Of a DNA stretch of 64,000 bases, positions 37,099 through 57,800 are shown in pieces. Numbering within the stretch: the first letter of the stretch is position 1; every line of letters starts with the position of its first letter. The notes under the pieces were generated by a model. That model was not told where the DNA came from, searched no databases, and was given only the letters and a program-made list of their open reading frames with translations. The stretch covers positions 1 to 64,000 of the forward strand of contig CAIRZB010000071.1 in NCBI GenBank assembly GCA_903882935.1, written 5' to 3'. The stretch comes from an uncultured Parafilimonas sp. (GTDB lineage Bacteria; Bacteroidota; Bacteroidia; Chitinophagales; Chitinophagaceae). The translations under genes and the position numbers were made by a program.

Positions 37099-38346
37099 AT
37101 GCACCCAAAGCATCTTTCCATACAGGATTTTACTTACAGTTTGCCGGACTATAAAATAGCCAGGCACCCATTGCAGCAGAGAGACGCCAGTAAATTGTTG
37201 GTGTATAAAAACGGCAGCATAGCCACCAGCCAATACAGTGCGCTGCCTGAACAGCTGGCCCCCGGCACACTGTTGGTTTTTAACAATACCAAAGTGGTGG
37301 AAGCCCGCATGTTATTTACGAAAACAACCAGCGGCATAGTTGAATTGTTTTGCCTTGAACCTGATGAGCAGTATGCCGACATTACCACTGCAATGCTGCA
37401 AAAAGGGCAGGTGTATTGGAAATGCTTGGTAGGTGGTGCCAAAAAATGGAAAGAACCAAGCTTGGTAAAAATAATAAACACAGGCAATAAGGCTGTAACG
37501 CTAACAGCCACAAAAATTAATAAGCCGGGTGACTATTTTACGATCGCCTTTGGTTGGGATGACGAAACTTTAAGCTTTGCTGAAATATTACATGCGGCCG
37601 GCCTTATACCGCTACCCCCCTATTTAAACCGTGATGCGGAAGATGCCGACAATACAACCTACCAAACGGTGTACGCCCAGCACGAGGGTTCAGTGGCGGC
37701 ACCAACGGCAGGCCTGCATTTTACCAACGAGCTGTTGACCAAACTAAGCAACAACAATATTGAAACAAGCTTTGTTACCCTGCATGTTGGGGCGGGTACT
37801 TTTAAACCCGTTAAGGCGGCCACCATGGCGCAACACGACATGCATGCAGAGTTTATTGATGTAAGCGCCGCTTTTATACAGCAATTGCTAAACAGCCTGC
37901 AAAAGCCCATTGTAACGGTAGGCACAACCAGCCTACGCACAGTTGAAAGCCTTTACTGGATGGGTGTAAAGGCAAACATATTGTATGAAGAAAACGAAGC
38001 TGTGGAAATTACCGAACAAGCGTTAACCATACACCAGTGGGACGCATATGAATTACCGCAGCACATATCAACCGCAGCCGCACTTACCAGCCTGCTAACA
38101 TGGCTAAACGCCACCGGCAGGCAGCGGCTAATTACAAAAACGCAAATTATAATGGCACCTGGCTATACTTTAAGGGTAGCGGCAGGGTTGGTTACAAATT
38201 TGCACCAGCCACAATCCACCTTATTGCTGCTGGTGGCGGCTGTTATAGGTGATGATTGGCGTAAAGTGTATGACTTTGCCCTGCAAAACAATTTTAGGTT
38301 TCTAAGTTATGGGGATGGCTGTTTGCTTTGGGCCAAAAGCCATTAG
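37099..38346 (+). CDS. queA: S-adenosylmethionine:tRNA ribosyltransferase-isomerase QueA
   Basis: 415 aa from the ATG giving MHPKHLSIQDFTYSLPDYKIA, the normal Bacteroidota start; an ATG 18 codons upstream is in frame but unsupported. Motifs RDASKLLVY, LVFNNTKVVEARM, GSVAAPTAGLHFT, LHVGAGTFKPVK and VGTTSLRTVESL identify QueA, which makes epoxyqueuosine on tRNA from preQ1 and the ribosyl part of SAM. Convergent with nusG across a strong terminator. Confidence 0.96.
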   Translation: MHPKHLSIQDFTYSLPDYKIARHPLQQRDASKLLVYKNGSIATSQYSALPEQLAPGTLLVFNNTKVVEARMLFTKTTSGIVELFCLEPDEQYADITTAMLQKGQVYWKCLVGGAKKWKEPSLVKIINTGNKAVTLTATKINKPGDYFTIAFGWDDETLSFAEILHAAGLIPLPPYLNRDAEDADNTTYQTVYAQHEGSVAAPTAGLHFTNELLTKLSNNNIETSFVTLHVGAGTFKPVKAATMAQHDMHAEFIDVSAAFIQQLLNSLQKPIVTVGTTSLRTVESLYWMGVKANILYEENEAVEITEQALTIHQWDAYELPQHISTAAALTSLLTWLNATGRQRLITKTQIIMAPGYTLRVAAGLVTNLHQPQSTLLLLVAAVIGDDWRKVYDFALQNNFRFLSYGDGCLLWAKSH

Positions 38347-38448
38347 GCCAATGGGCAAATAGTAACTGCCTATAACTGCTTGGTTATAACCGCATTTGTA
38401 GCATACTCTAAAAAGCTACTAGTGCCACCTAAAAAACTTTCCAACTAA

Positions 38449-38482
38449 ACAAAAAAAACAGCCGCAGTTTTACCTGCGGCTG
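38449..38482 (-). terminator. Strong terminator after nusG
   Basis: Perfect 9-bp stem CAGCCGCAG / CTGCGGCTG with loop TTTTAC (38459-38482). On the minus strand it is followed by TTTTTTTTG. It ends the tRNA-tuf-secE-nusG operon 27 nt after the nusG stop codon, so rplK cannot be co-transcribed here. Confidence 0.9.
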
Positions 38483-38508
38483 CTAAATAAATAACTTTAT
38501 GTAATAGA

Positions 38509-39090
38509 CTATGCCAGTTTTTCCACTTGCATATAGTTCAACTCCACAGGAGTTGACCTACCGAATATCTTCACCGTAACCTTCAATTTCTTCTTCTCAT
38601 CGTTCACTTCTTCAATAACACCGTTAAAGTCGTTAAACGGCCCTTCTATTATCTTAATGGTTTCGCCAATAATAAATGGCTCGCTCATGGTAGCACCTTG
38701 GTCGTTCATCTCATCAACCTTACCAAGCATCTTATTTACTTCAGCCTTACGGAGGGAGATGATATTACCTTTTGAACCCTTGCCATCTGTAAGAAAGTGC
38801 ATCACATTGCTAATATTGCTGATGTGCAATATAATATCATCCGTAAGCTTACCATCTGCCACCTCCAACATTACATATCCGGGATAATAGTTTTTTTCGC
38901 GCATTACCTTTTTACCGTTCTGCACCTTGTAAACCTTCTCCATGGGCAAAAACACTTGTTTCACCACTTCAGTCCAACCGCTGCGACTTATATCCTTGTC
39001 TAAATATTCCTTCACCTTCCTTTCCTTGCCGCTTACTACACGCAACACATACCATTTACTTTCTTTCTGCGGCACCAACACGTCTTCCAT
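38509..39090 (-). CDS. nusG: Transcription termination/antitermination factor NusG
   Basis: 193 aa. NGN domain at residues 10-115 (KWYVLRVVSGKERKVKEYLDKDI, VFLPMEKVYKV, YYPGYVMLEV) and KOW domain near the C terminus (ETIKIIEGPFNDFNGVIEEVNDEKKKLKVTVKIFGRSTPVELNY). It binds RNA polymerase and couples it to the ribosome. Three nucleotides follow the nusG ATG-side of secE: the genes are adjacent with a 3-nt gap. No rplK follows, unlike in most bacteria. Confidence 0.97.
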   Translation of the reverse strand: MEDVLVPQKESKWYVLRVVSGKERKVKEYLDKDISRSGWTEVVKQVFLPMEKVYKVQNGKKVMREKNYYPGYVMLEVADGKLTDDIILHISNISNVMHFLTDGKGSKGNIISLRKAEVNKMLGKVDEMNDQGATMSEPFIIGETIKIIEGPFNDFNGVIEEVNDEKKKLKVTVKIFGRSTPVELNYMQVEKLA

Positions 39091-39093
39091 GGC

Positions 39094-39291
39094 TTAAGCT
39101 TTAAAAAATGAATAAACAAACTTTAAAACCATGGCGCTGGCACCGTCCATAACGCCAACGCATACCATAATTAAAATTGTGGCAACAAGCACTATCACTG
39201 TCGACTGCTGTAACTGCCCCCATGTAGGCCAAGTTACTTTCTCCAACAGCTCTTGGTATGAATCCTTAAAGTAGCTAGATACCTTGTTCAT
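39094..39291 (-). CDS. secE: Preprotein translocase subunit SecE
   Basis: 65 aa from MNKVSSYFKDSYQEL; this is the typical short SecE of Bacteroidota. It has an amphipathic stretch (LLEKVTWPTWGQLQQSTVIVL, with the conserved VTWPT) and one membrane helix. It stabilises SecY in the translocon. The in-frame extension upstream to 39363 reads through the large inverted repeat and is rejected as start. Confidence 0.95.
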   Translation of the reverse strand: MNKVSSYFKDSYQELLEKVTWPTWGQLQQSTVIVLVATILIMVCVGVMDGASAMVLKFVYSFFKA

Positions 39292-39297
39292 GTATAA

Positions 39298-39405
39298 AAT
39301 TTGAAAATGTGTTAATTTGAAAATTTGAAAATTAAAGCAATTCCATAATTTGAAAATACGCAATACGCAATTTTCAAATTTTCAAATTAACACATTTTCA
39401 AATTT
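39298..39405. repeat. Perfect 37-bp inverted repeat upstream of secE
   Basis: The arms 39298-39334 and 39369-39405 are exact reverse complements (37 of 37), separated by 34 nt. Each arm is built from TTTGAAAA / TTTTCAAA units. The transcript of the tRNA-Trp to secE spacer would fold into a very stable hairpin just before secE. It is not a terminator, since secE and nusG lack another obvious promoter here. Confidence 0.9.
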
Positions 39406-39413
39406 CCTTTTTG

Positions 39414-39484
39414 CACGGGCCAGAGGATTCGAACCACTATCAACGGTTTTGGAGACCGCTATTCTACCATTGAACTAGGCCCGT
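39414..39484 (-). tRNA. trpT: tRNA-Trp (CCA)
   Basis: 71 nt; acceptor ACGGGCC/GGCCCGT, D arm GTTCAATGGTAGAATAGC, anticodon arm CGGTCTCCAAAACCG with anticodon CCA, T arm GTGGTTCGAATCCT. CCA tail not encoded. It lies between tuf and secE, as in other Bacteroidota. Confidence 0.97.
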
Positions 39485-39614
39485 ATACCCCTATCCCCTA
39501 AATTGGGGACAAGGAAGAACTTAATTAGAAGCAAAGTACCCGAACATTCTGTTCAGGTACTTTGCAAATATAGTTACTTTATATTTTACTCTCACTCCTT
39601 TAGGGAGTGGGGGC
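39485..39614. repeat. MITE-like spacer between tuf and tRNA-Trp
   Basis: One palindrome copy (CTCCTTTAGGGAG plus arm TGGGGGCTTA) lies directly at the tuf stop codon (about 39591-39617) and an inverted one (on the minus strand CCCCAATTTAGGGG, then ATAGGGGTA) next to the tRNA 5' end (39485-39510). They bracket ~130 bp like terminal inverted repeats, the same layout as between murG and murC. Confidence 0.55.
39531..39565 (-). other. Long hairpin in the tuf-tRNA-Trp spacer
   Basis: GCAAAGTACCTGAAC pairs with GTTCGGGTACTTTGC over 15 bp (one G-U) around the loop AGAAT, on the minus strand. It has no T-tract, so it is a processing or stability element rather than a terminator: it separates the tuf mRNA from the tRNA. 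Confidence 0.65.
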
Positions 39615-40802
39615 TTATTTTATAACTTCAGTAACCTGACCGGCACCTACTGTACGGCCACCTTCGCGAATCGCGAATTTCAAACCTTTTTCCATTGCGA
39701 TTGGGGCAATCAAGGTAACAATCAACCTTACGTTATCGCCAGGCATAACCATTTCAGTACCTTCTGGTAATTTAACTTCACCCGTTACGTCAGTTGTACG
39801 GAAGTAGAACTGAGGACGGTATTTGTTAAAGAACGGTGTGTGACGGCCACCTTCTTCCTTGCTAAGTACGTAAACTTCGCATTGGAAATCAGTGTGCGGG
39901 GTAATGCTCTTAGGTTTACAAATAACCATACCGCGGCGGATATCTTTCTTTTCAATACCGCGCAACAGCAAACCAGCGTTGTCACCAGCTTCACCACGGT
40001 CAAGCAATTTCTTAAACATTTCCACACCAGTTACGGTAGAGGTTAATGGTTCAGGAATTAAACCAACCAGTTCAACAGGCTCACCAACCTTGATGATACC
40101 GCGCTCAATACGGCCTGTGGCAACAGTACCACGACCTGTGATAGAGAACACGTCTTCAACGCTCATCAAGAAATCCATATCTATCGGGCGTGGAGGCAAC
40201 GGAATGTAGCTGTCAACAGCATCCATCAGTTGGTCAATAGCACCAAGCCATTTGGGTTCACCAGCCAATGCGCCAGTTGCAGAACCTTGTATAACTGGAG
40301 TATTGTCACCATCGAAACCGTTTTTAGTTAACAGCTCGCGGATTTCCATTTCAACCAACTCCAACAATTCGGGGTCATCAACAAGGTCAACCTTGTTCAT
40401 AAATACCACCATGCGGGGTACACCTACCTGGCGGGCAAGAAGGATGTGTTCCCTTGTTTGTGGCATCGGGCCATCTGTAGCAGCCACCACAAGTATAGCA
40501 CCATCCATTTGGGCAGCACCGGTAATCATGTTTTTAACATAGTCGGCGTGGCCTGGACAGTCAACGTGTGCATAGTGACGGCTGGCTGTTTGGTATTCTA
40601 CGTGTGCTGTATTAATGGTAATACCGCGTTCTTTTTCTTCTGGTGCACCATCAATTTCATCATATTTCTTAGCTGTCGCAAGGCCTTTCTTAGAAAGAAT
40701 GGTGGTAATAGCGGCAGTTAAAGTTGTTTTACCGTGGTCTACGTGACCAATGGTACCAACGTTTACGTGAGGTTTGTCCCTGTTAAAGGTCTCTTTAGCC
40801 AT
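39615..40802 (-). CDS. tuf: Elongation factor Tu
   Basis: 395 aa, full length. [32 protein letters not shown] with G1 loop GHVDHGKT, switch [32 protein letters not shown], and the C-terminal beta barrels. It delivers aminoacyl-tRNA to the ribosome. Only one tuf is seen. Placed between four tRNA genes and tRNA-Trp/secE/nusG. A CCCTTTAGGG-type palindrome touches the stop codon. Confidence 0.99.
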
Positions 40803-40966
40803 CTTATCGGTTTTTAAGTTGTGTTTTAAAATGTTTGTTTATGTATCCGGTCCCGCTTGTACGGGGTTACGATTCACTCTTCATCTTTCGTTATTCATTC
40901 ACCCATCGCGGCCGTGAACAAACTTTCTTCTACTACCGTAAAACAATGTACTTGCTTTACTAGTGG

Positions 40967-41038
<72 letters not shown>

Positions 41039-41048
41039 TTTTCTAAAA

Positions 41049-41126
41049 GTCATTGAGCCATCAGCCATAGGGCTGCTAAAACGAGTCATTAACTTTATCC
41101 TCCCCTATGACTCATTGACCTATGGC
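41049..41126. repeat. Imperfect inverted repeat between tRNA-Thr and tRNA-Gly
   Basis: A GTCATTGA/CCATAGG-unit sequence at 41049-41071 and its imperfect inverted copy at 41104-41126 (16 of 23 positions agree). Another short-unit family in a tRNA spacer; no T-run, so no terminator. Confidence 0.45.
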
Positions 41127-41134
41127 CGAACAAG

Positions 41135-41207
41135 AGCGGAAGACGAGGCTCGAACTCGCTGCCTATAGCTTGGAAGGCTATCGCTCTACCAAATGAGCTA
41201 CTTCCGC
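41135..41207 (-). tRNA. tRNA-Gly (TCC)
   Basis: 73 nt; acceptor GCGGAAG/CTTCCGC, D arm GCTCATTTGGTAGAGC, anticodon loop CTTCCAA with anticodon TCC, T arm GCGAGTTCGAGCCTCGT. Confidence 0.97.
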
Positions 41208-41220
41208 AGAACAATTTGAA

Positions 41221-41310
41221 TCCCGCGTGGGCGGGATGAAAACTTGAAAATGAATTACCGAAGTTGTTTCATTTTCAAATTTTCAAATTCCCTCATTTTC
41301 AAATTTTGAA
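41221..41310. repeat. Hairpins and TTTTCAAA repeats between tRNA-Gly and tRNA-Tyr
   Basis: A GC hairpin TCCCGC-GTGG-GCGGGA (41221-41236), then TTGAAAATGAA (41244-41254) pairing with TTCATTTTCAA (41268-41278), then further ATTTTCAAA units to 41310. The units are the same as in the large repeat before secE. Confidence 0.6.
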
Positions 41311-41317
41311 AGAACTG

Positions 41318-41400
41318 TGGGTAGAGAAGGATTCGAACCTCCGTACTCGTGAGAGAACAGATTTACAGTCTGTCGCCTTTAGCCACTCGGCCATCTACCC
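41318..41400 (-). tRNA. tRNA-Tyr (GTA)
   Basis: 83 nt with a long variable arm; acceptor GGGTAGA/TCTACCC, anticodon stem ACAGA/TCTGT with loop CTGTAAA (anticodon GTA), T arm GGAGGTTCGAATCCTTC. Confidence 0.97.
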
Positions 41401-41460
41401 AAATTAACCTTTACCCTAACGCTACATGCCAGCACCTGTAAACTGATGGCTTGTTTTCTG

Positions 41461-41533
41461 AGCCACTTGTCGGAGTCGAACCAACGACCTACTGATTACA
41501 AATCAGTTGCTCTACCAACTGAGCTAAAGTGGC
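41461..41533 (-). tRNA. tRNA-Thr (TGT)
   Basis: 73 nt; acceptor GCCACTT/AAGTGGC, D arm GCTCAGTTGGTAGAGC, anticodon loop TTTGTAA with anticodon TGT, T arm GTTGGTTCGACTCCGAC. First gene of the operon. Confidence 0.97.
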
Positions 41534-41861
41534 ATATCACCACCCTTTGCTTATAATTATCGCCATCCTGATTTCTTTTTTCAAAACCAACACCCTGCTG
41601 ATTAAACGAATTCTCATTAAAACACAGCAGCTAGGCCGAATTGGCATTTTACAATACCCGCTTTAACAGGGTTATAAACAAAGTAATATTTTACCTACGT
41701 TAAAGTAATTAAGAACAAAGAGCTACCCCGTTTTTAGGGATGGCAAAGGTAAGAGAATTCTTAATTCGGCAAAATTTTGTGCAGATTATTTTAGATGAGT
41801 TTTAAAAAAAGCTTCAAAACATGCCGGCCATGTACATAAAAATGGCGGTAGTCGGCTAATA
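41534..41861. other. Upstream region of the tRNA-tuf operon
   Basis: 328 bp without a gene. It should carry the strong promoter for the tRNA-tuf transcript on the minus strand; a possible -7 box TTACTTTG lies at about 41678-41685, without a well-placed -33 box. No repeats of note. Confidence 0.4.
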
Positions 41862-42122
41862 CTATTTTGCATTTTCACCAAGGCCGCCATCTGTTAAAAG
41901 CCTTATGTTTATTGAGTCCTGCTCAATTACCCGGTTATTTATAACGCAACTGTCGTTAACAATTCCGCTGTTATTTTTATAGCGGTAGGCTACAAAAAGT
42001 TTATTTCCGGGCAACGCCTTTCGTTCAAAAATAAAGCCTTTTACGGCTGCAATAGGGCTGCTTTTGCATGAAAAACAGCAAAGTATCGCCAAAATAGGTG
42101 CTATCATTTTTATGTTACGCAT
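41862..42122 (-). CDS. Small putative lipoprotein
   Basis: 86 aa. Lipoprotein signal MIAPILAILCCFSC (from Met6; either Met may be used) with the Cys near residue 19, then a short domain with ERKALPGNKLFVAYRYKNNSG and NDSCVINNRVIEQDS. Not recognised. Downstream of hpf but separated by a terminator, so it probably has its own promoter. Confidence 0.6.
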   Translation of the reverse strand: MRNIKMIAPILAILCCFSCKSSPIAAVKGFIFERKALPGNKLFVAYRYKNNSGIVNDSCVINNRVIEQDSINIRLLTDGGLGENAK

Positions 42123-42133
42123 GTTATTATTAA

Positions 42134-42162
42134 CAAAAAAAGCCCCGCATTATTGCAGGGCT
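42134..42162 (-). terminator. Terminator after hpf
   Basis: On the minus strand AGCCCTGCA pairs with TGCGGGGCT (one mismatch) around a 4-nt loop, followed by seven T. It lies 9 nt beyond the hpf stop codon. Confidence 0.85.
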
Positions 42163-42171
42163 GTAAAATTT

Positions 42172-42471
42172 TTATGCTGCCAATTTTTGTTTTTTTCTTT
42201 TAATTTGGTTTACAAGTGATTCAAAAGCATTGTCAAAAGATTCTTCAAACGATTTTGAGGAAACCTTCACAAAAAAACTGTGTCGCGGAACATCTACCCT
42301 AATCTCTGCAATTTTGTCTTTGATGGTGTGTACAACGTTATCAAGCTTTAGAAAAACATCAACCTTAATAACCTTGTCGTGAAAAGTAGATATCTTCTGC
42401 AATTTCCTGTTTACATAGTCCACCAATTTCAAGTCTGCATCAAAATGCACAGTCTGGATGTTTACATTCAT
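42172..42471 (-). CDS. hpf: Ribosome hibernation-promoting factor, short HPF/RaiA-like
   Basis: 99 aa from MNVNIQTVHFDADLKLVDYVNRKLQKI; an in-frame ATG at 42522 adds an unsupported 17 residues. Beta-alpha-beta-beta-beta-alpha fold of the S30EA family (KVDVFLKLDNVVHTIKDKIAEIRVDVPRHSFFVKVSSKSFEESFDNAFESLVNQIKRKKQKL). It binds the 30S subunit A/P sites under stress, causing dormancy. It lacks the C-terminal dimerisation domain of long HPF. Third gene after rpsU and xerC. Confidence 0.92.
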   Translation of the reverse strand: MNVNIQTVHFDADLKLVDYVNRKLQKISTFHDKVIKVDVFLKLDNVVHTIKDKIAEIRVDVPRHSFFVKVSSKSFEESFDNAFESLVNQIKRKKQKLAA

Positions 42472-42623
42472 AAAAAATCGCGTTTTAAGTGAAAAAATAA
42501 AAGAACTACACTCGTTTGCCACCGTATGTGGCTGTTAGCGATGTTGAAATTACTTCATTTGTGCTTAAAAACTTTGACGTTAATCAATTTTAACCTTAAA
42601 ATTTTATTATTTCTTAACGCAGG

Positions 42624-43532
42624 CTACGCCTTTGGGTGCGCCTTTTTATGTATGTCCTTTAACTTGTCTATGGTGTTGTGCGTGTACACCTGGGTGGCTG
42701 CAAGGCTGCTATGCCCCAGCAATTCCTTAACAGCGTTCAGGTCGGCCCCGTTATTGGTTAAATGGGTGGCAAAAGTGTGCCGCAGCACATGCGGGCTTTT
42801 TTTGTCGATGGTGGTTACCTGCGCAAGTTTTGAATGCACCAAGGTGTATATATACTTGGCATACAATGGCTTGCCCTTACTATTTACAAAAACATTGCCT
42901 ACACCCGGCTGGGTAGGTGGCCTGGTGGCAATATAATTTTGCAAATCGCCCATCAGCACCTTGCCAAGCGGTATTATCCGTTCTTTATTGCCCTTGCCCA
43001 ACACCTTAATATGGCCGTTTGGCGCGTCAAGTTGCCCTACTTGCAAATTTACCAGTTCACTTAGGCGCATGCCCGTGCTGTAAAACAGTAACAAAATCAG
43101 GCGCCCCATCCTACCCTCCCAAGTATCGGCGAATAGGCTTTTGCCTTCTTCCTCGTCAAACAAGGTTGTAATATCGTTATCTGCCACAAACGCGGGCAGC
43201 CGCTTTGCTGTTTTGGGGCTAACAATCACCGCCATAGGCGTTTGCTTTATTACGCCCTGCTTAATCATATATTTGAAAAACGACTTTAGGGCAGATATCT
43301 TCCGGTTTATGCTTTTGGCGGTAAGCTTGTCTCCCTTTAACTCTGCCAGCCAACTGCGCACAAGCGGTGCTGTTATTTCAGCTATGGGCGGTGCGCTATA
43401 TTGGCTCACCAAAAAAGCGCAAAACTGCTCCAGGTCGTTTTGGTAGGATATAATTGTATTGGGCGAGCAGCGTTTTTCAAAACGCAGGTACTGTAAAAAC
43501 TGGTGTATTTGCGGGTATTGTGTGGTAGGCAT
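42624..43532 (-). CDS. xerC: Tyrosine recombinase XerC/XerD
   Basis: 302 aa. N-terminal SAM-like core-binding domain (FLQYLRFEKRCSPNTIISYQNDLEQFCAFL) and catalytic domain with Arg in STGMRLSELVNLQ, Lys in VLGKGNKERIIPL, HVLRHTFATHL, LGHSSLAATQVYTH with the nucleophile Tyr. Full-length housekeeping Xer that resolves chromosome dimers at dif. Its position after rpsU and before hpf is conserved in many Bacteroidota, so it is not a mobile-element integrase. Confidence 0.92.
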   Translation of the reverse strand: MPTTQYPQIHQFLQYLRFEKRCSPNTIISYQNDLEQFCAFLVSQYSAPPIAEITAPLVRSWLAELKGDKLTAKSINRKISALKSFFKYMIKQGVIKQTPMAVIVSPKTAKRLPAFVADNDITTLFDEEEGKSLFADTWEGRMGRLILLLFYSTGMRLSELVNLQVGQLDAPNGHIKVLGKGNKERIIPLGKVLMGDLQNYIATRPPTQPGVGNVFVNSKGKPLYAKYIYTLVHSKLAQVTTIDKKSPHVLRHTFATHLTNNGADLNAVKELLGHSSLAATQVYTHNTIDKLKDIHKKAHPKA

Positions 43533-54229: not shown

Positions 54230-54254
54230 TTGGTAAAAATAATGAAACGGCGAC

Positions 54255-54519
54255 CGGGAAACGTGAATCGTCAATCGTGAAACGCGAAACGGGAATCGTG
54301 AAACAGGAATCTCTCCACACCTGGTCTTAAATATCACCAAACGAACAATACAAAACCAAGTTTAGCAAGCTGGCCGAACCTAAAAACCCAGTAACGGAAT
54401 TTAAATAAGTTCTACTTAGACGCTTGGAGGTCAAATTTAACGATTTTCTACGCTCATTTCACGAATGACGATTCTCGCATCACGATTCACGTTTCACGAT
54501 TGACGATTCACGTTTCCCG
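54255..54519. repeat. Perfect 30-bp inverted repeat flanking the flippase-tpiA spacer
   Basis: Arms 54255-54284 and 54490-54519 are exact reverse complements (30 of 30), built from CGTGAATCGT / CGTGAAACG units; about 205 nt lie between them, with further related units inside (54458-54489, 54285-54310). The right arm touches the tpiA stop codon (within 3 nt). Confidence 0.85.
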
Positions 54520-54522
54520 TAT

Positions 54523-55287
54523 TTACTGTTTCAACGCATTGATAATTGCTTCAAACTCAGTGGCAATCAGCGAAGCACCGCCCACCAAACCGCCATCAAC
54601 ATCGGGCTGTGAAAATATTTCTTTGGCATTGCTGGCTTTTACGCTACCGCCATATAAAATAGAAATACTGTCGGCCACATGTTGCCCGTATTTAGACGCA
54701 ATTACCTCTCTTAGGTAAGCCTGAATTTCTTGTGCTTGGGCACTAGTGGCCGTTTTGCCTGTGCCGATGGCCCAAATAGGCTCATAGGCAATCACCACTT
54801 TCAATATACTTGCCTCATCCAGGTGAAAGAGGGATTCTTCCAATTGTTTGGCAACATATTCGTTTTGGGTGCCAGCTTCGCGTATGCTTAGTGGCTCGCC
54901 GCAACAAAAAATAGGCGTAATGCGATATTCCAGGGCTATGTCAACCTTATCGGCCAAAAACTTGTTGCTCTCGGCAAAATATTCGCGGCGTTCTGAGTGG
55001 CCGAGTACCACACACTCAATGCCCAAAGAGGTAAGCATTTCAACGGAAACCTCGCCCGTGTAGGCACCACTTTTTTTGTTGTAGCAGTTTTGTGCCGCAA
55101 TAAACACATGCTGCACACCTTTTACCTTTGCCTGCGCGGCGGCAAGGTATGGGGAAGGCACGGCGAACACCACCTGCTGGTGGCTGGTGAATTGGTAATG
55201 CTTGCTTAGTATATCATCCAACAGTTGTTCCCCCTGCTGAAGGGTTAAGTTCATTTTCCAGTTGGCTGCGGCTATTTGTTTTCTCAT
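54523..55287 (-). CDS. tpiA: Triose-phosphate isomerase
   Basis: 254 aa. Active-site Lys11 in AANWKMN, His in VVLGHSERR, Glu in VIAYEPIWAIGTGKTA and phosphate loop in ILYGGSVK and GLVGGASL. Converts dihydroxyacetone phosphate to glyceraldehyde 3-phosphate. Both its ends are flanked by CGTGAATCGT repeats. Probably its own transcript. Confidence 0.98.
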   Translation of the reverse strand: MRKQIAAANWKMNLTLQQGEQLLDDILSKHYQFTSHQQVVFAVPSPYLAAAQAKVKGVQHVFIAAQNCYNKKSGAYTGEVSVEMLTSLGIECVVLGHSERREYFAESNKFLADKVDIALEYRITPIFCCGEPLSIREAGTQNEYVAKQLEESLFHLDEASILKVVIAYEPIWAIGTGKTATSAQAQEIQAYLREVIASKYGQHVADSISILYGGSVKASNAKEIFSQPDVDGGLVGGASLIATEFEAIINALKQ

Positions 55288-55317: not shown

Positions 55318-55390
55318 TTCGTGAAACGTGAATGGGGAAACGTGAATCGTGAATCGTCAAACTTCAAACGTCAATCGTGAATGGTGAATA
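55318..55390. repeat. CGTGAATCGT repeat upstream of tpiA
   Basis: Tandem TCGTGAAACGTGAAT, GGAAACGTGAATCGTGAAT and CGTCAATCGTGAAT units fill the spacer between tpiA and the GlmU-like gene. Same family as the 30-bp inverted repeat on the other side of tpiA. Confidence 0.75.
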
Positions 55391-55483: not shown

Positions 55484-56647
55484 TCAATTGCGGTCAAAGA
55501 TATGTTTCAAAACGTCTTTTTCTGCATCTTCCAGCGTATGGTGCTTCATTTTTTTCCAGTTGGCTATATCTCGGAGTGCTTTTTCAAATACATATTTCTC
55601 CTCTGTAGCGCCTCCCCAGCTGAAATCGGCTATTTGTTTTGGCATTAGCCCGCCATCAAAAATATTACAGCAACAGCCCACTATAGTGCCTGTGTTTAAA
55701 GTGGTATTGATGGCAGTACGGCTGTAGTCGCCCATAATAAAACCGCCTTTTTGGCCAACGGGCAGGTAACCTTTAGCCGGATAGTTAAACATCTTTACTT
55801 CCGCACCGGTGTTTTTTACATTGCTGTTGGTGGTGCCTGCCCCAAGGTTGCACCAACGGCCAACCACCGCATCGCCCAGGTAACCGTCATGCCCTTTGTT
55901 GCTGTAGGCTTGCATAACGCTGTTTTTTATTTCGCCGCCGGCTGTGCAATGGGGGCCCACAGTGGTAGCACCATAAATTCTGGTACCCATTTTTACCACG
56001 GCACCCTCGCATAGGGCAAAAGGCCCGCGGATGGTGGCACCTTCCATCACCACGGCATCCTGGCCAATGTAAATCGGCCCAGTGGATGCATTTAGGGTTG
56101 CAAAAACAACCTGCGCACCCTCTTCAATAATAATCTGCGACGGGTTTGTGTACTGGTTATTTTCCGGCAGGGGCTTGGATGATTTTTGGGTCTGCACTAA
56201 GATAAAATCCTCCCGTAACAAGGTGTCGTTCCATTGGAATATCTGCCAAGGGTATTGCAACCGCCTTACCGTAGGCACCTGTTGTATCTTATTGAAATAT
56301 TTTTGAGGGTTTGCAGCATCAAATCCATCTGGTGAAATGGAAACAACACCTGCGATGAAACCGTTTTCGTCAGCCAAGCCACAGCCTTCACCCAAAGCAA
56401 GTACGATATTTGCGAGTGCGGCATTTGCCAGCACGGCGGCATCCACCCACAAGTTTTTTGCATGCGGTATGGTTTCATACAAAGGCAGCAAATACCTAGC
56501 AGAATGGACGAAAACCTTTTCGCCGGTTTGTAATGCCCATCTTTCCCTCGCCGTAAAAATACCGGCCCTTAACTCTGCCACGGCATTTGTAAGTGTTAAC
56601 GGAAACAGGTTTTGCCGGTGTGGATTGTCAAAAAGAATGATGTTCAT
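55484..56647 (-). CDS. GlmU-like putative sugar nucleotidyltransferase
   Basis: 387 aa. The N-terminal half (LFDNPHRQNLFPLTLTNAVAELRAGIFTARERW) is the degenerate nucleotidyltransferase domain of a Bacteroidota-specific GlmU-like family: it lacks the usual LxxGxGTRM loop. The C-terminal half (~residues 170-300) is a left-handed beta-helix (ASTGPIYIGQDAVVMEGATIRGPFALCEGAVVKMGTRIYGAT), then SNVKNTGAEVKMFNYP. It may make UDP-GlcNAc or related sugar nucleotides; the reaction is not proven. Placed 7 nt after a higA-type gene. Confidence 0.85.
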   Translation of the reverse strand: MNIILFDNPHRQNLFPLTLTNAVAELRAGIFTARERWALQTGEKVFVHSARYLLPLYETIPHAKNLWVDAAVLANAALANIVLALGEGCGLADENGFIAGVVSISPDGFDAANPQKYFNKIQQVPTVRRLQYPWQIFQWNDTLLREDFILVQTQKSSKPLPENNQYTNPSQIIIEEGAQVVFATLNASTGPIYIGQDAVVMEGATIRGPFALCEGAVVKMGTRIYGATTVGPHCTAGGEIKNSVMQAYSNKGHDGYLGDAVVGRWCNLGAGTTNSNVKNTGAEVKMFNYPAKGYLPVGQKGGFIMGDYSRTAINTTLNTGTIVGCCCNIFDGGLMPKQIADFSWGGATEEKYVFEKALRDIANWKKMKHHTLEDAEKDVLKHIFDRN

Positions 56648-56654
56648 GCGTTGA

Positions 56655-56981
56655 CTAACTTAATTGCAAAAGATGGTCTGCAATTTTTACATTAAAGCTT
56701 ATCTCTGCTTTTAATGCCTTAAAAACTTTAATTACGGTATCGATGGTAGCGCTGTTAGCACTGTTTTCCAACTTTGAAATCTGTGCTTTTTGTACACCAA
56801 CCAATTTACCAAGCTGCTCCTGCGTAAGATTACGCTCCTGCCTCGCTTTTTTTATCATATAACCCAGTACATCCATTTTAAGTTCATACTCATATTCGGC
56901 ACGTGCGGGTGTACCCTTTTCACCGATATATTTATCTTTCATCTCTTCAAGAGAAAATGATTCTATTTCACCTTTTCCCAT
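56655..56981 (-). CDS. higA: HigA-type antitoxin, XRE helix-turn-helix
   Basis: 108 aa from MGKGEIESFSLEEMKDKY. The HTH is LGYMIKKARQERNLTQEQLGKLVGVQKAQISKLENSANSATIDTVIKVFKALKAEISF. Toxin gene upstream ends 1 nt before its start codon, so the two are co-translated; order toxin-antitoxin is that of higBA. Frame upstream to 57152 overlaps the toxin gene and is rejected as start. Confidence 0.88.
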   Translation of the reverse strand: MGKGEIESFSLEEMKDKYIGEKGTPARAEYEYELKMDVLGYMIKKARQERNLTQEQLGKLVGVQKAQISKLENSANSATIDTVIKVFKALKAEISFNVKIADHLLQLS

Positions 56982-56982
56982 A

Positions 56983-57321
56983 TCATTTCTTTTTGCTCTC
57001 AAAATACTTTTTCTTAATGTTTTTTGCCCGCTCAATTTCATTGGCAGGCACTTTGTCCACTTTCTTAATAAATCCGTGCGTCGCAAAAACAAGCGTGTTG
57101 TTGTTATCCGATTTGTCCCAAAAAGCAAGCAAGCGCACCTGGTTATTGCCAATTCTTATGCGGAACGCCCAAATATCATCCCTTAACTTTTTAAATAATT
57201 TAGGGTCATTCGTTTGTTCAGCCAAATCAATATTGTAAAGAATCTTTTTAATTGCCTTGGCATCAAGGCTGGCAATAAACTCATTGGCCTCTTTTAAAAA
57301 ACGTGTTTCAAAATATTTCAC
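56983..57321 (-). CDS. higB: HigB/RelE-type toxin, Gp49-like
   Basis: 112 aa of the phage-derived Gp49-like/HigB family: RFLKEANEFIASLDAKAIKKILYNIDLAEQ, LFKKLRDDIWAFRIRIGNNQVRLLAFWDKS, LVFATHGFIKKVDKVPANEIERAKNIKKKYFE. These are RNA-cleaving ribosome-dependent toxins. Family key residues (basic stretch in WAFRIRIGNNQVRLL and GFIKK) are in place, so it is likely active and kept in check by HigA. Confidence 0.9.
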   Translation of the reverse strand: MKYFETRFLKEANEFIASLDAKAIKKILYNIDLAEQTNDPKLFKKLRDDIWAFRIRIGNNQVRLLAFWDKSDNNNTLVFATHGFIKKVDKVPANEIERAKNIKKKYFESKKK

Positions 57322-57334
57322 ATCTTTATTATTG

Positions 57335-57368
57335 CAAAGTTAAAGAAACTGTTTCCAAATATAGAAAC
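57335..57368 (-). promoter_or_regulatory. higBA promoter with GAAAC/GTTTC operator
   Basis: On the minus strand TAACTTTG followed by C (57342-57335) fits TAnnTTTG, 13 nt before the higB start. Upstream, GTTTC-N8-GAAAC (57368-57351) and then GTTTC (57349-57345) make three half-sites that overlap the promoter, as expected for binding by HigA. Confidence 0.55.
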
Positions 57369-57382
57369 CTATTCTCCTAAAG

Positions 57383-57412
57383 TGGGTTGCGCTTTGCATT
57401 TTAAGCAACCCA
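57383..57412 (-). other. Hairpin downstream of the membrane gene
   Basis: Perfect 8-bp stem TGGGTTGC / GCAACCCA with a 14-nt loop, 17 nt past the stop codon of the minus-strand membrane gene. No T-tract, so its role as terminator is doubtful. Confidence 0.4.
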
Positions 57413-57428
57413 TCAAATATTTGATATT

Positions 57429-57800
57429 TTATGCCATTGGTTTTAAAAAATAAGACAATGCAAAACCGGCGCTTGCCAGCATGTAGCCAGTAGTCCCAAT
57501 CCAAAATAACGCGCCCCGCAATTCTGCAAAATTCTTTTCCCCCTTGAACGACACAATTACTACTGATTCAATAACATACCCGACAGAATAAAGAACATTA
57601 GCCATTACACCCCAGCATAATATACCAAAGTAATCGAAAGCAGATAAACGAAAGCCACTAAACAGTGCTATTGAAGCAAGACCCGAAAAGCCCACCAATA
57701 TATTGAATAACAACAACTTGCCAACCCAATAATTGTAAGCCGCAAGCAACTTGTTTGCTGTAACGTTTTCGCCAACCTCTTCAAAAATCGAGTTTTCCAT
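57429..57800 (-). CDS. Hypothetical three/four-TM membrane protein
   Basis: 123 aa with helices LLLFNILVGFSGLASIALFSG, FGILCWGVMANVLYSVGYVIESVVIV, LFWIGTTGYMLASAGFALSYFL after a polar N terminus. Not recognised. It lies between the higBA module and the DUF58 operon, same strand, but its spacing (67 nt) to DUF58 does not show an operon. Confidence 0.65.
   Translation of the reverse strand: MENSIFEEVGENVTANKLLAAYNYWVGKLLLFNILVGFSGLASIALFSGFRLSAFDYFGILCWGVMANVLYSVGYVIESVVIVSFKGEKNFAELRGALFWIGTTGYMLASAGFALSYFLKPMA

Follow-up and report, generated by a model that had tools for sequence, protein, structure and literature searches.

A perfect palindrome between tRNA-Trp and secE in an uncultured Parafilimonas belongs to a dispersed repeat family built of eight-nucleotide words

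An inverted repeat whose arms match at every position, placed between a tRNA gene and secE, raises the question of whether such a stem is kept for what its RNA does in the operon, is a mobile repeat that came to lie there, or has some other history. The window considered here is a stretch of 64,000 nucleotides from an uncultured Parafilimonas sp. (positions 1 to 64,000 of contig CAIRZB010000071.1, assembly GCA_903882935.1), for which a first-pass annotation had reported a perfect 37-bp inverted repeat in the tRNA-Trp-secE spacer. The inverted repeat is real, with arms at 39297-39333 and 39369-39405 that are complementary at 37/37 positions and separated by 35 nt (39334-39368); the annotated start lay one base late. 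Its reported placement is also correct, as tuf, tRNA-Trp, the element, secE and nusG lie in this order, all on the minus strand. The features of the region are as follows.

38509..39090, minus strand: nusG, an open frame, used as the query for relatives
39094..39291, minus strand: secE, an open frame, with a similar N-terminus and position in relatives
39297..39333, minus strand: secE-proximal (3') arm, the exact reverse complement of the other arm
39334..39368, minus strand: loop of the palindrome, with one further TTTGAAAAT word (plus strand) at 39349-39357
39369..39405, minus strand: tRNA-proximal (5') arm, reading AATTTGAA AATGTGTT AATTTGAA AATTTGAA AAT plus flank, recognised by complementarity and family matches
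39413..39484, minus strand: tRNA-Trp (CCA), from a tRNA call and the Rfam tRNA model
39615..40802, minus strand: tuf (EF-Tu), an open frame
41237..41311, minus strand: a second, imperfect family member, between tRNA-Tyr and tRNA-Gly in the same gene cluster

The names secE and nusG are supported by the conserved gene order in relatives, and the gene at 39615..40802 is taken to be tuf (EF-Tu). Genes were called with a codon scorer trained on this genome, with the consequence that some starts are over-extended and some secE genes of relatives were skipped.

The spacer between tRNA-Trp and secE measures 121 nt and is almost wholly palindrome, the element leaving a gap of 7 nt to the tRNA on one side and of 5 nt to the ATG of secE on the other; its GC content is 19%. 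The description of the arms as consisting of TTTGAAAA units holds for three of the four words in each arm, and one word deviates (AATGTGTT); together the words and the terminal AAT cover 35 of the 37 bases of each arm. Among the 20 inverted repeats listed for the window with arms at most 150 nt apart, this palindrome is the longest, and scored as an inverted repeat the spacer reaches a z of 14.3 (40 shuffles). RNA folding of positions 39280-39420 on the plus strand (z -8.78) and of positions 39250-39490 on the minus strand, which is the sense strand (z -8.35), was in each case better than that of 200/200 dinucleotide shuffles. Scanned against Rfam, positions 38000-43000 yielded five tRNAs as the only matches to reach a gathering score and no RNA family for the palindrome; the microRNA precursors listed for it were rejected, as their scores fall far below their gathering scores. 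A terminator-like hairpin with 16-nt arms (39531-39565) lies between tuf and tRNA-Trp, upstream of the tRNA.

The annotation had proposed a search of the genome for the arm sequence, and this search revealed a dispersed family rather than a unique sequence. A 20-mer of the arm matches the 5.54-Mb genome, a draft of 114 contigs, at 68 positions with at most 2 mismatches, a count that includes shifted readings of one element, and the reversed control matches at none. A 24-mer of the arm occurs at 30 places with at most 3 mismatches (control none), and the 24-mer containing AATGTGTT is mismatch-free only in the two arms of the window element. From the pattern matches 32 element clusters were entered by hand, which fall into 30 spacers with a median length of 139 nt (range 78-913); two places with 3 mismatches (contig C58 near 75585, and contig C108) are not counted among these spacers. 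Given this dispersal, the idea of a regulatory stem peculiar to the tRNA-secE operon was rejected. The consensus arm is about 37 nt long and comprises four 8-nt words, namely AATTTGAA, a variable word, AATTTGAA and AATTTGAA, followed by AAT, the number and order of words varying among the arms of the family. Arms are present at 23/33 consensus positions in 28 of the 30 spacers; both arms are found in 21/30 at a loose threshold and in 9/25 with a stricter two-word core, and an inverted repeat of at least 20 pairs exists in 19/30. Loop lengths range from 2 to 409 nt, and the interior is not conserved, since with the words masked only 3 of 171 loop pairs have a common 10-mer, compared with a mean of 1.1 and a maximum of 4 in shuffles (unmasked, 50/171 pairs do, and these are dominated by the words). 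Beyond this genome the distribution is patchy: out of 195 genomes in the bacterial family, 45 contain a related 20-mer exactly, and the reversed control gave 2 matches, both in one genome; the nearest named relatives are, as we take it from record titles, Chitinophagaceae. Viral carriers were considered and rejected, as the exact 35-nt arm had no match among viral contigs.

Repeats of other kinds are found in the same genome. Positions 54230-54522 of the window hold a palindrome of heptamer words around a 169-nt loop, which has more pairs than the tRNA-Trp-secE element (42, with 6 mismatches), and arrays of 7-nt words of the CGTGAAA type at 54244-54516 and 55319-55389 flank the gene at 54523-55287, the 42-pair inverted repeat belonging to the spacer that holds the first of these arrays. 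The genome matches the CGTGAAA-type words at 233 positions, many of which lie on contig C98 near 56583-57756. Strong inverted repeats in general (at least 14 pairs, z of at least 4) occur in 12 of 51 convergent spacers versus 11 of 175 codirectional ones among the spacers sampled; several of these repeats have a short loop and a perfect stem of 19-20 bp and are probably bidirectional terminators.

The position of the family relative to genes is strongly biased in this genome. Its 30 spacers comprise 28 codirectional, 2 divergent and no convergent ones, whereas a background sample of 464 kb from this genome has 282 spacers with lengths of 40-500 nt, of which 175 are codirectional, 56 divergent and 51 convergent (P 1.1e-4 for 28/30 codirectional, 0.0025 for zero convergent). 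This background was drawn from the window and from 20 stretches of hit-carrying contigs, placed off the hits, and serves as an orientation baseline, giving no count of the family; one of the 30 spacers (913 nt) exceeds its length range. The codirectional bias did not recur in three other carrier genomes, in which 30 loci supplied 26 distinct spacers (17 codirectional, 6 divergent and 3 convergent), all spacers of at least 40 nt in the same loci being 36, 12 and 8, respectively. Similarly, long-loop palindromes of any words in 80 named loci occupied 29/590 codirectional, 2/21 convergent and 0/11 divergent spacers, which is no codirectional excess. The operon preference is therefore strong in this genome, and these two sets of counts do not extend it to others.

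Within the codirectional spacers the elements mostly stand between the stop codon of one gene and the start codon of the next. The first word begins at a median distance of 8 nt behind the stop codon or tRNA end (28 spacers, 27 of them within 18 nt), and the last word ends at a median distance of 10 nt ahead of the start codon (27 spacers, 19 within 17 nt and 8 at 30-330 nt). The neighbours, whose gene symbols are our reading of Pfam names, include several pairs typical of operons: groES-groEL, ATP synthase b-delta and beta-epsilon, ATP synthase gamma-scpB, nuoI-nuoJ, two aconitase-family subunits, fabH with a release factor, and the genes flanking six spacers within the S10-spc operon of ribosomal proteins, in which L30 and S17 are named by position. 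One copy stands before pheS, and other copies adjoin metabolic, uncharacterised or prophage-like genes. The S10 operon is enriched for the element, with 6 of its 17 spacers occupied (p 3.7e-8, calculated with an extrapolated total of 2087 spacers; one S10 spacer was bounded by tblastn matches instead of the gene caller). An integron cassette array, considered for this dense cluster, was excluded, as the Pfam families are S10-spc ribosomal proteins.

A comparison of the same spacer in relatives had also been proposed, and it showed a congener without the palindrome and other relatives with palindromes in other words. The tRNA-Trp gene is followed by secE in 77 of the 80 named loci. The spacer between them is at least 40 nt long in 49 of these 77, and 18 of the 49 carry an inverted repeat that passes p<=0.01, against an expectation of about 0.5 spacers; in the remaining 28/77 it is shorter than 40 nt, which means that a stem is not required at this site. 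Ten relatives have TTTGAAAA words followed by TTTTCAAA words and none has the reverse order, while others have different words of 7 or 8 nt; in the spacer of one relative a small inserted hairpin, rich in GC, interrupts an 8-nt word as judged by eye, so that one repeat is nested in another. The occurrence of palindromes in unrelated words at one site hints at selection or at a local mutational cause.

The S10 operons of the family offer a second view. In 17 genomes of the bacterial family, this one included, their spacers have a median of 67 nt, and a stem at p<=0.01 is present in 31 of the 223 that are at least 40 nt long (29/206 when this genome is left out). Four genomes from the order's other families have a median spacer of 10 nt, and stems number 0/11 there. 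Different S10 sites of one genome have a common 11-mer in 6.0% of 2268 pairs, and different sites compared between genera in 3.1% of 56872 pairs (shuffles 1.3-1.5%), and thus the ‘genome dialect’ of spacer words is modest, at about twice the between-genera level. The same site compared between genera gives 13.5% of 3575 pairs.

The annotation had further held that a mismatch-free stem implies recent origin or active maintenance, and the two halves of this claim fared differently. Arm agreement was scored on 21 elements, taking the sense arm and then a non-overlapping antisense arm in fixed register only. The two arms of one element agree at 24.4/35 positions and arms of different elements at 24.9/35, and permuting partners gives p 0.95, or 0.99 without the window copy; active maintenance is not supported, as own arms in the repeat family do not track each other and pair no better than their shared words provide for, even though 19/30 spacers still have an inverted repeat of at least 20 pairs. 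The window copy alone reaches 35/35, the next best element being at 30/35. Recent origin is supported, both by the restriction of fully matching arms to the window copy and by a same-genus genome (G002, NusG 96% identical), whose tRNA-Trp-secE spacer is 24 nt long and holds only start-side words, with no pair. Four S10 sites that carry an element here are readable in G002, and none of them has such a palindrome; they show a 26-nt spacer, another word set, a short GC hairpin and only start-side words, respectively. At several S10 spacers G002 uses another word set, of the AATTCCAA type. Turnover is not always fast, since S10 spacers at the same site within a genus have a common 11-mer in 50 of 59 pairs, and since three congeners of another genus have kept a related element at tRNA-Trp-secE, with words changed on the right side. 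As own arms in the family are no more alike than arms of different elements and the window copy is the sole exception, its perfect arms point to recent copying of one arm onto the other and not to lasting maintenance; a single such event is the simplest account of the match, and a perfect stem need not imply a selected RNA.

The explanation that we favour, with moderate confidence, is that the element is a dispersed non-coding repeat of Chitinophagaceae, whose copies in operon gaps are tolerated as folded hairpins and whose window copy was freshly perfected by arm copying. Its unit would be the arm of about 37 nt with four 8-nt words, which frequently occurs twice, in inverted orientation, with an unrelated loop in between. 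The transcript may fold the insert into a hairpin, bringing the flanking genes effectively close together, and insertion would for this reason be tolerated. The 37/37 match would have arisen lately through arm-to-arm copying, for which a template switch in the course of replication is the simplest route. The explanation leaves room for a slight influence on mRNA decay but does not need one. Template switching is able to make and to repair perfect stems, according to the available portion of PMC8794818.

The main competing view is that the stem is a selected RNA structure, in which a hairpin at the new 5' end after tRNA excision would shield the secE-nusG mRNA against ribonucleases, or would protect the upstream RNA from 3' decay, the sequence being free to change while the stem stays. 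The stems found in several unrelated word sets among relatives at tRNA-Trp-secE, their presence in S10 spacers of the 17 family genomes and the strong fold on the sense strand speak for it. We nevertheless consider it unlikely, given the short spacers of so many relatives, the pairless 24-nt spacer in the same genus and the failure of own arms to track each other. It is more doubtful still that the start-side TTTTCAAA array is what matters, as a candidate site ahead of start codons to which a protein or the ribosome would bind, by analogy with what was proposed for TAACTGA repeats, with the palindrome as a side effect. An identical 35-nt start-side arm does precede five different genes, TTTTCAAA arms predominate among arms that stand alone (30 versus 13 in three sets), and word types differ by side in this genome (0/7 versus 10/3, p 0.003, with several counts coming from one spacer). 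In relatives, however, the side difference is not significant (p 0.27), and TTTTCAAA arms are not clearly start-side, having a median relative position of 0.64 in S10 loci and of 0.32 in nusG loci, the latter affected by the secE genes that the gene caller skipped; to our knowledge no protein binds TTTTCAAA words. A terminator or attenuator between tRNA-Trp and secE would also place a stable hairpin within the operon, but it is very improbable: the element is not a GC-rich stem with a T run, no T run follows it on the sense strand, it was absent from the terminator-like sites found, its copies precede core operon members, and a terminator-like stem with a T run sits after nusG instead, at 38484-38457. 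The chance that the palindrome is an assembly artefact is slighter still and close to negligible, for in spite of the draft state of the 114 contigs the same kind of element appears in independent assemblies of relatives, with the flanking genes in their usual order.

The suggestion that the palindrome is a mobile repeat proved right as regards dispersal (68 matches versus 0 in the control) and found no counterpart in a target duplication or a transposase. That it is a classical MITE or REP-type element moved by a transposase in trans appears improbable, even though its arms resemble terminal repeats, its copies are dispersed and patchy across genera, and the window copy has inverted arms around a short non-coding interior. 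The order of the arms also fits such an element, as it is fixed here (14/15 spacers have the TTTGAAAA arm within their first half, and 16/19 have the TTTTCAAA arm within their second) and is the same in the ten relatives mentioned above at tRNA-Trp-secE. Against it stand the interior, which has no conservation beyond the words, and the arms, which differ in word number and order. By eye, no target-site duplication is apparent in the flanks of the window copy, and the G002 spacers do not align as clean empty sites. No transposase was named by Pfam among the 51 of 56 flanking proteins scanned, 7 of which had no family at the cut-off, and the search for transposases in the whole genome covered one family, Y1_Tnp. 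The stem of 37 bp carries no REP tag, GTAG and CGTC being absent from both strands of 39297-39405, and around the five Y1_Tnp (RAYT-type) genes TTTGAA/TTCAAA words number 0-4 per 3-kb locus. As seen by eye, each of these five genes has its own repeats beside it, different for each gene. Mobilisation by RAYT proteins was excluded on account of these other repeats.

One observation runs counter to the part of the favoured explanation that makes the repeat a passive passenger, namely the enrichment in the S10 operon at 6/17 spacers, which would be unexpected of one. A broader proposal, which we advance tentatively and regard as doubtful, is that operons of Chitinophagaceae carry changing intercistronic palindromes of 7- or 8-nt words as fold-out spacers, such that in essential operons their architecture and their place between stop and start persist while the words are replaced, and the two sides have different roles, with a variable word on the stop side and fixed TTTTCAAA words on the start side.

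Among known systems, MITEs and TAACTGA-type word arrays come closest to the way in which the dispersed repeat described here works. TAACTGA heptamers form direct repeats in Beggiatoaceae, in Cyanobacteria and in some Bacteroidetes (MacGregor 2015, PMC4679880) and, as far as the available text of that source describes them, share with the present family tandem short words in intergenic positions, mostly just upstream of start codons, an occurrence in ribosomal protein operons and before pheS, a patchy distribution and a mechanism of spread that is not evident. They differ in having a fixed 7-nt word in direct arrays, with one inverted case (PMC4679880), whereas the main word here has 8 nt, the arrays often form folding inverted pairs, and word sets differ between relatives. 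The MITEs ERIC and Correia are likewise small intergenic inverted-repeat elements, and their transcripts can be processed, those of Correia by RNase III and those of ERIC by RNase E (portions of PMC10969869); unlike MITEs, the present family has yielded no conserved interior, target duplication or parent transposon, and its arms are tandem words. Degenerate tandem words in spacers are also a feature of the cyanobacterial STRR heptanucleotide repeats, but there they form direct arrays. REP sequences and the GTAG and CGTC palindromes are, like the present element, dispersed, extragenic and often paired, and CGTC palindrome families also exist without a dedicated transposase; their stems are of 5-13 bp with a GTAG or CGTC tag, in contrast to an untagged stem of 37 bp (as described in parts of PMC3733652). 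Quasipalindromes perfected by template switching are a likeness of another kind, in which one event gives a perfect stem (portion of PMC8794818), and this fits one perfect copy among imperfect ones; that process is mutational, it makes no repeat family, and dispersal is left unexplained by it. The accessible part of PMC4060949 treats palindromes in general, and a word search of the accessible part of PMC2267715 gave no mention of Bacteroidetes or operons. The open-licence literature yielded no description of this repeat family or of its 16-mer.

What sets the dispersed repeat apart is the unusual load that it places on essential operons, where it separates the members of core gene pairs, with six copies in the S10-spc operon of this genome, and yet can be absent from the same sites of a congener. 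Two questions thereby become testable in one group of organisms, namely by what route such word arrays spread when no transposase is in evidence, and whether folded intercistronic spacers are merely tolerated or are put to use.
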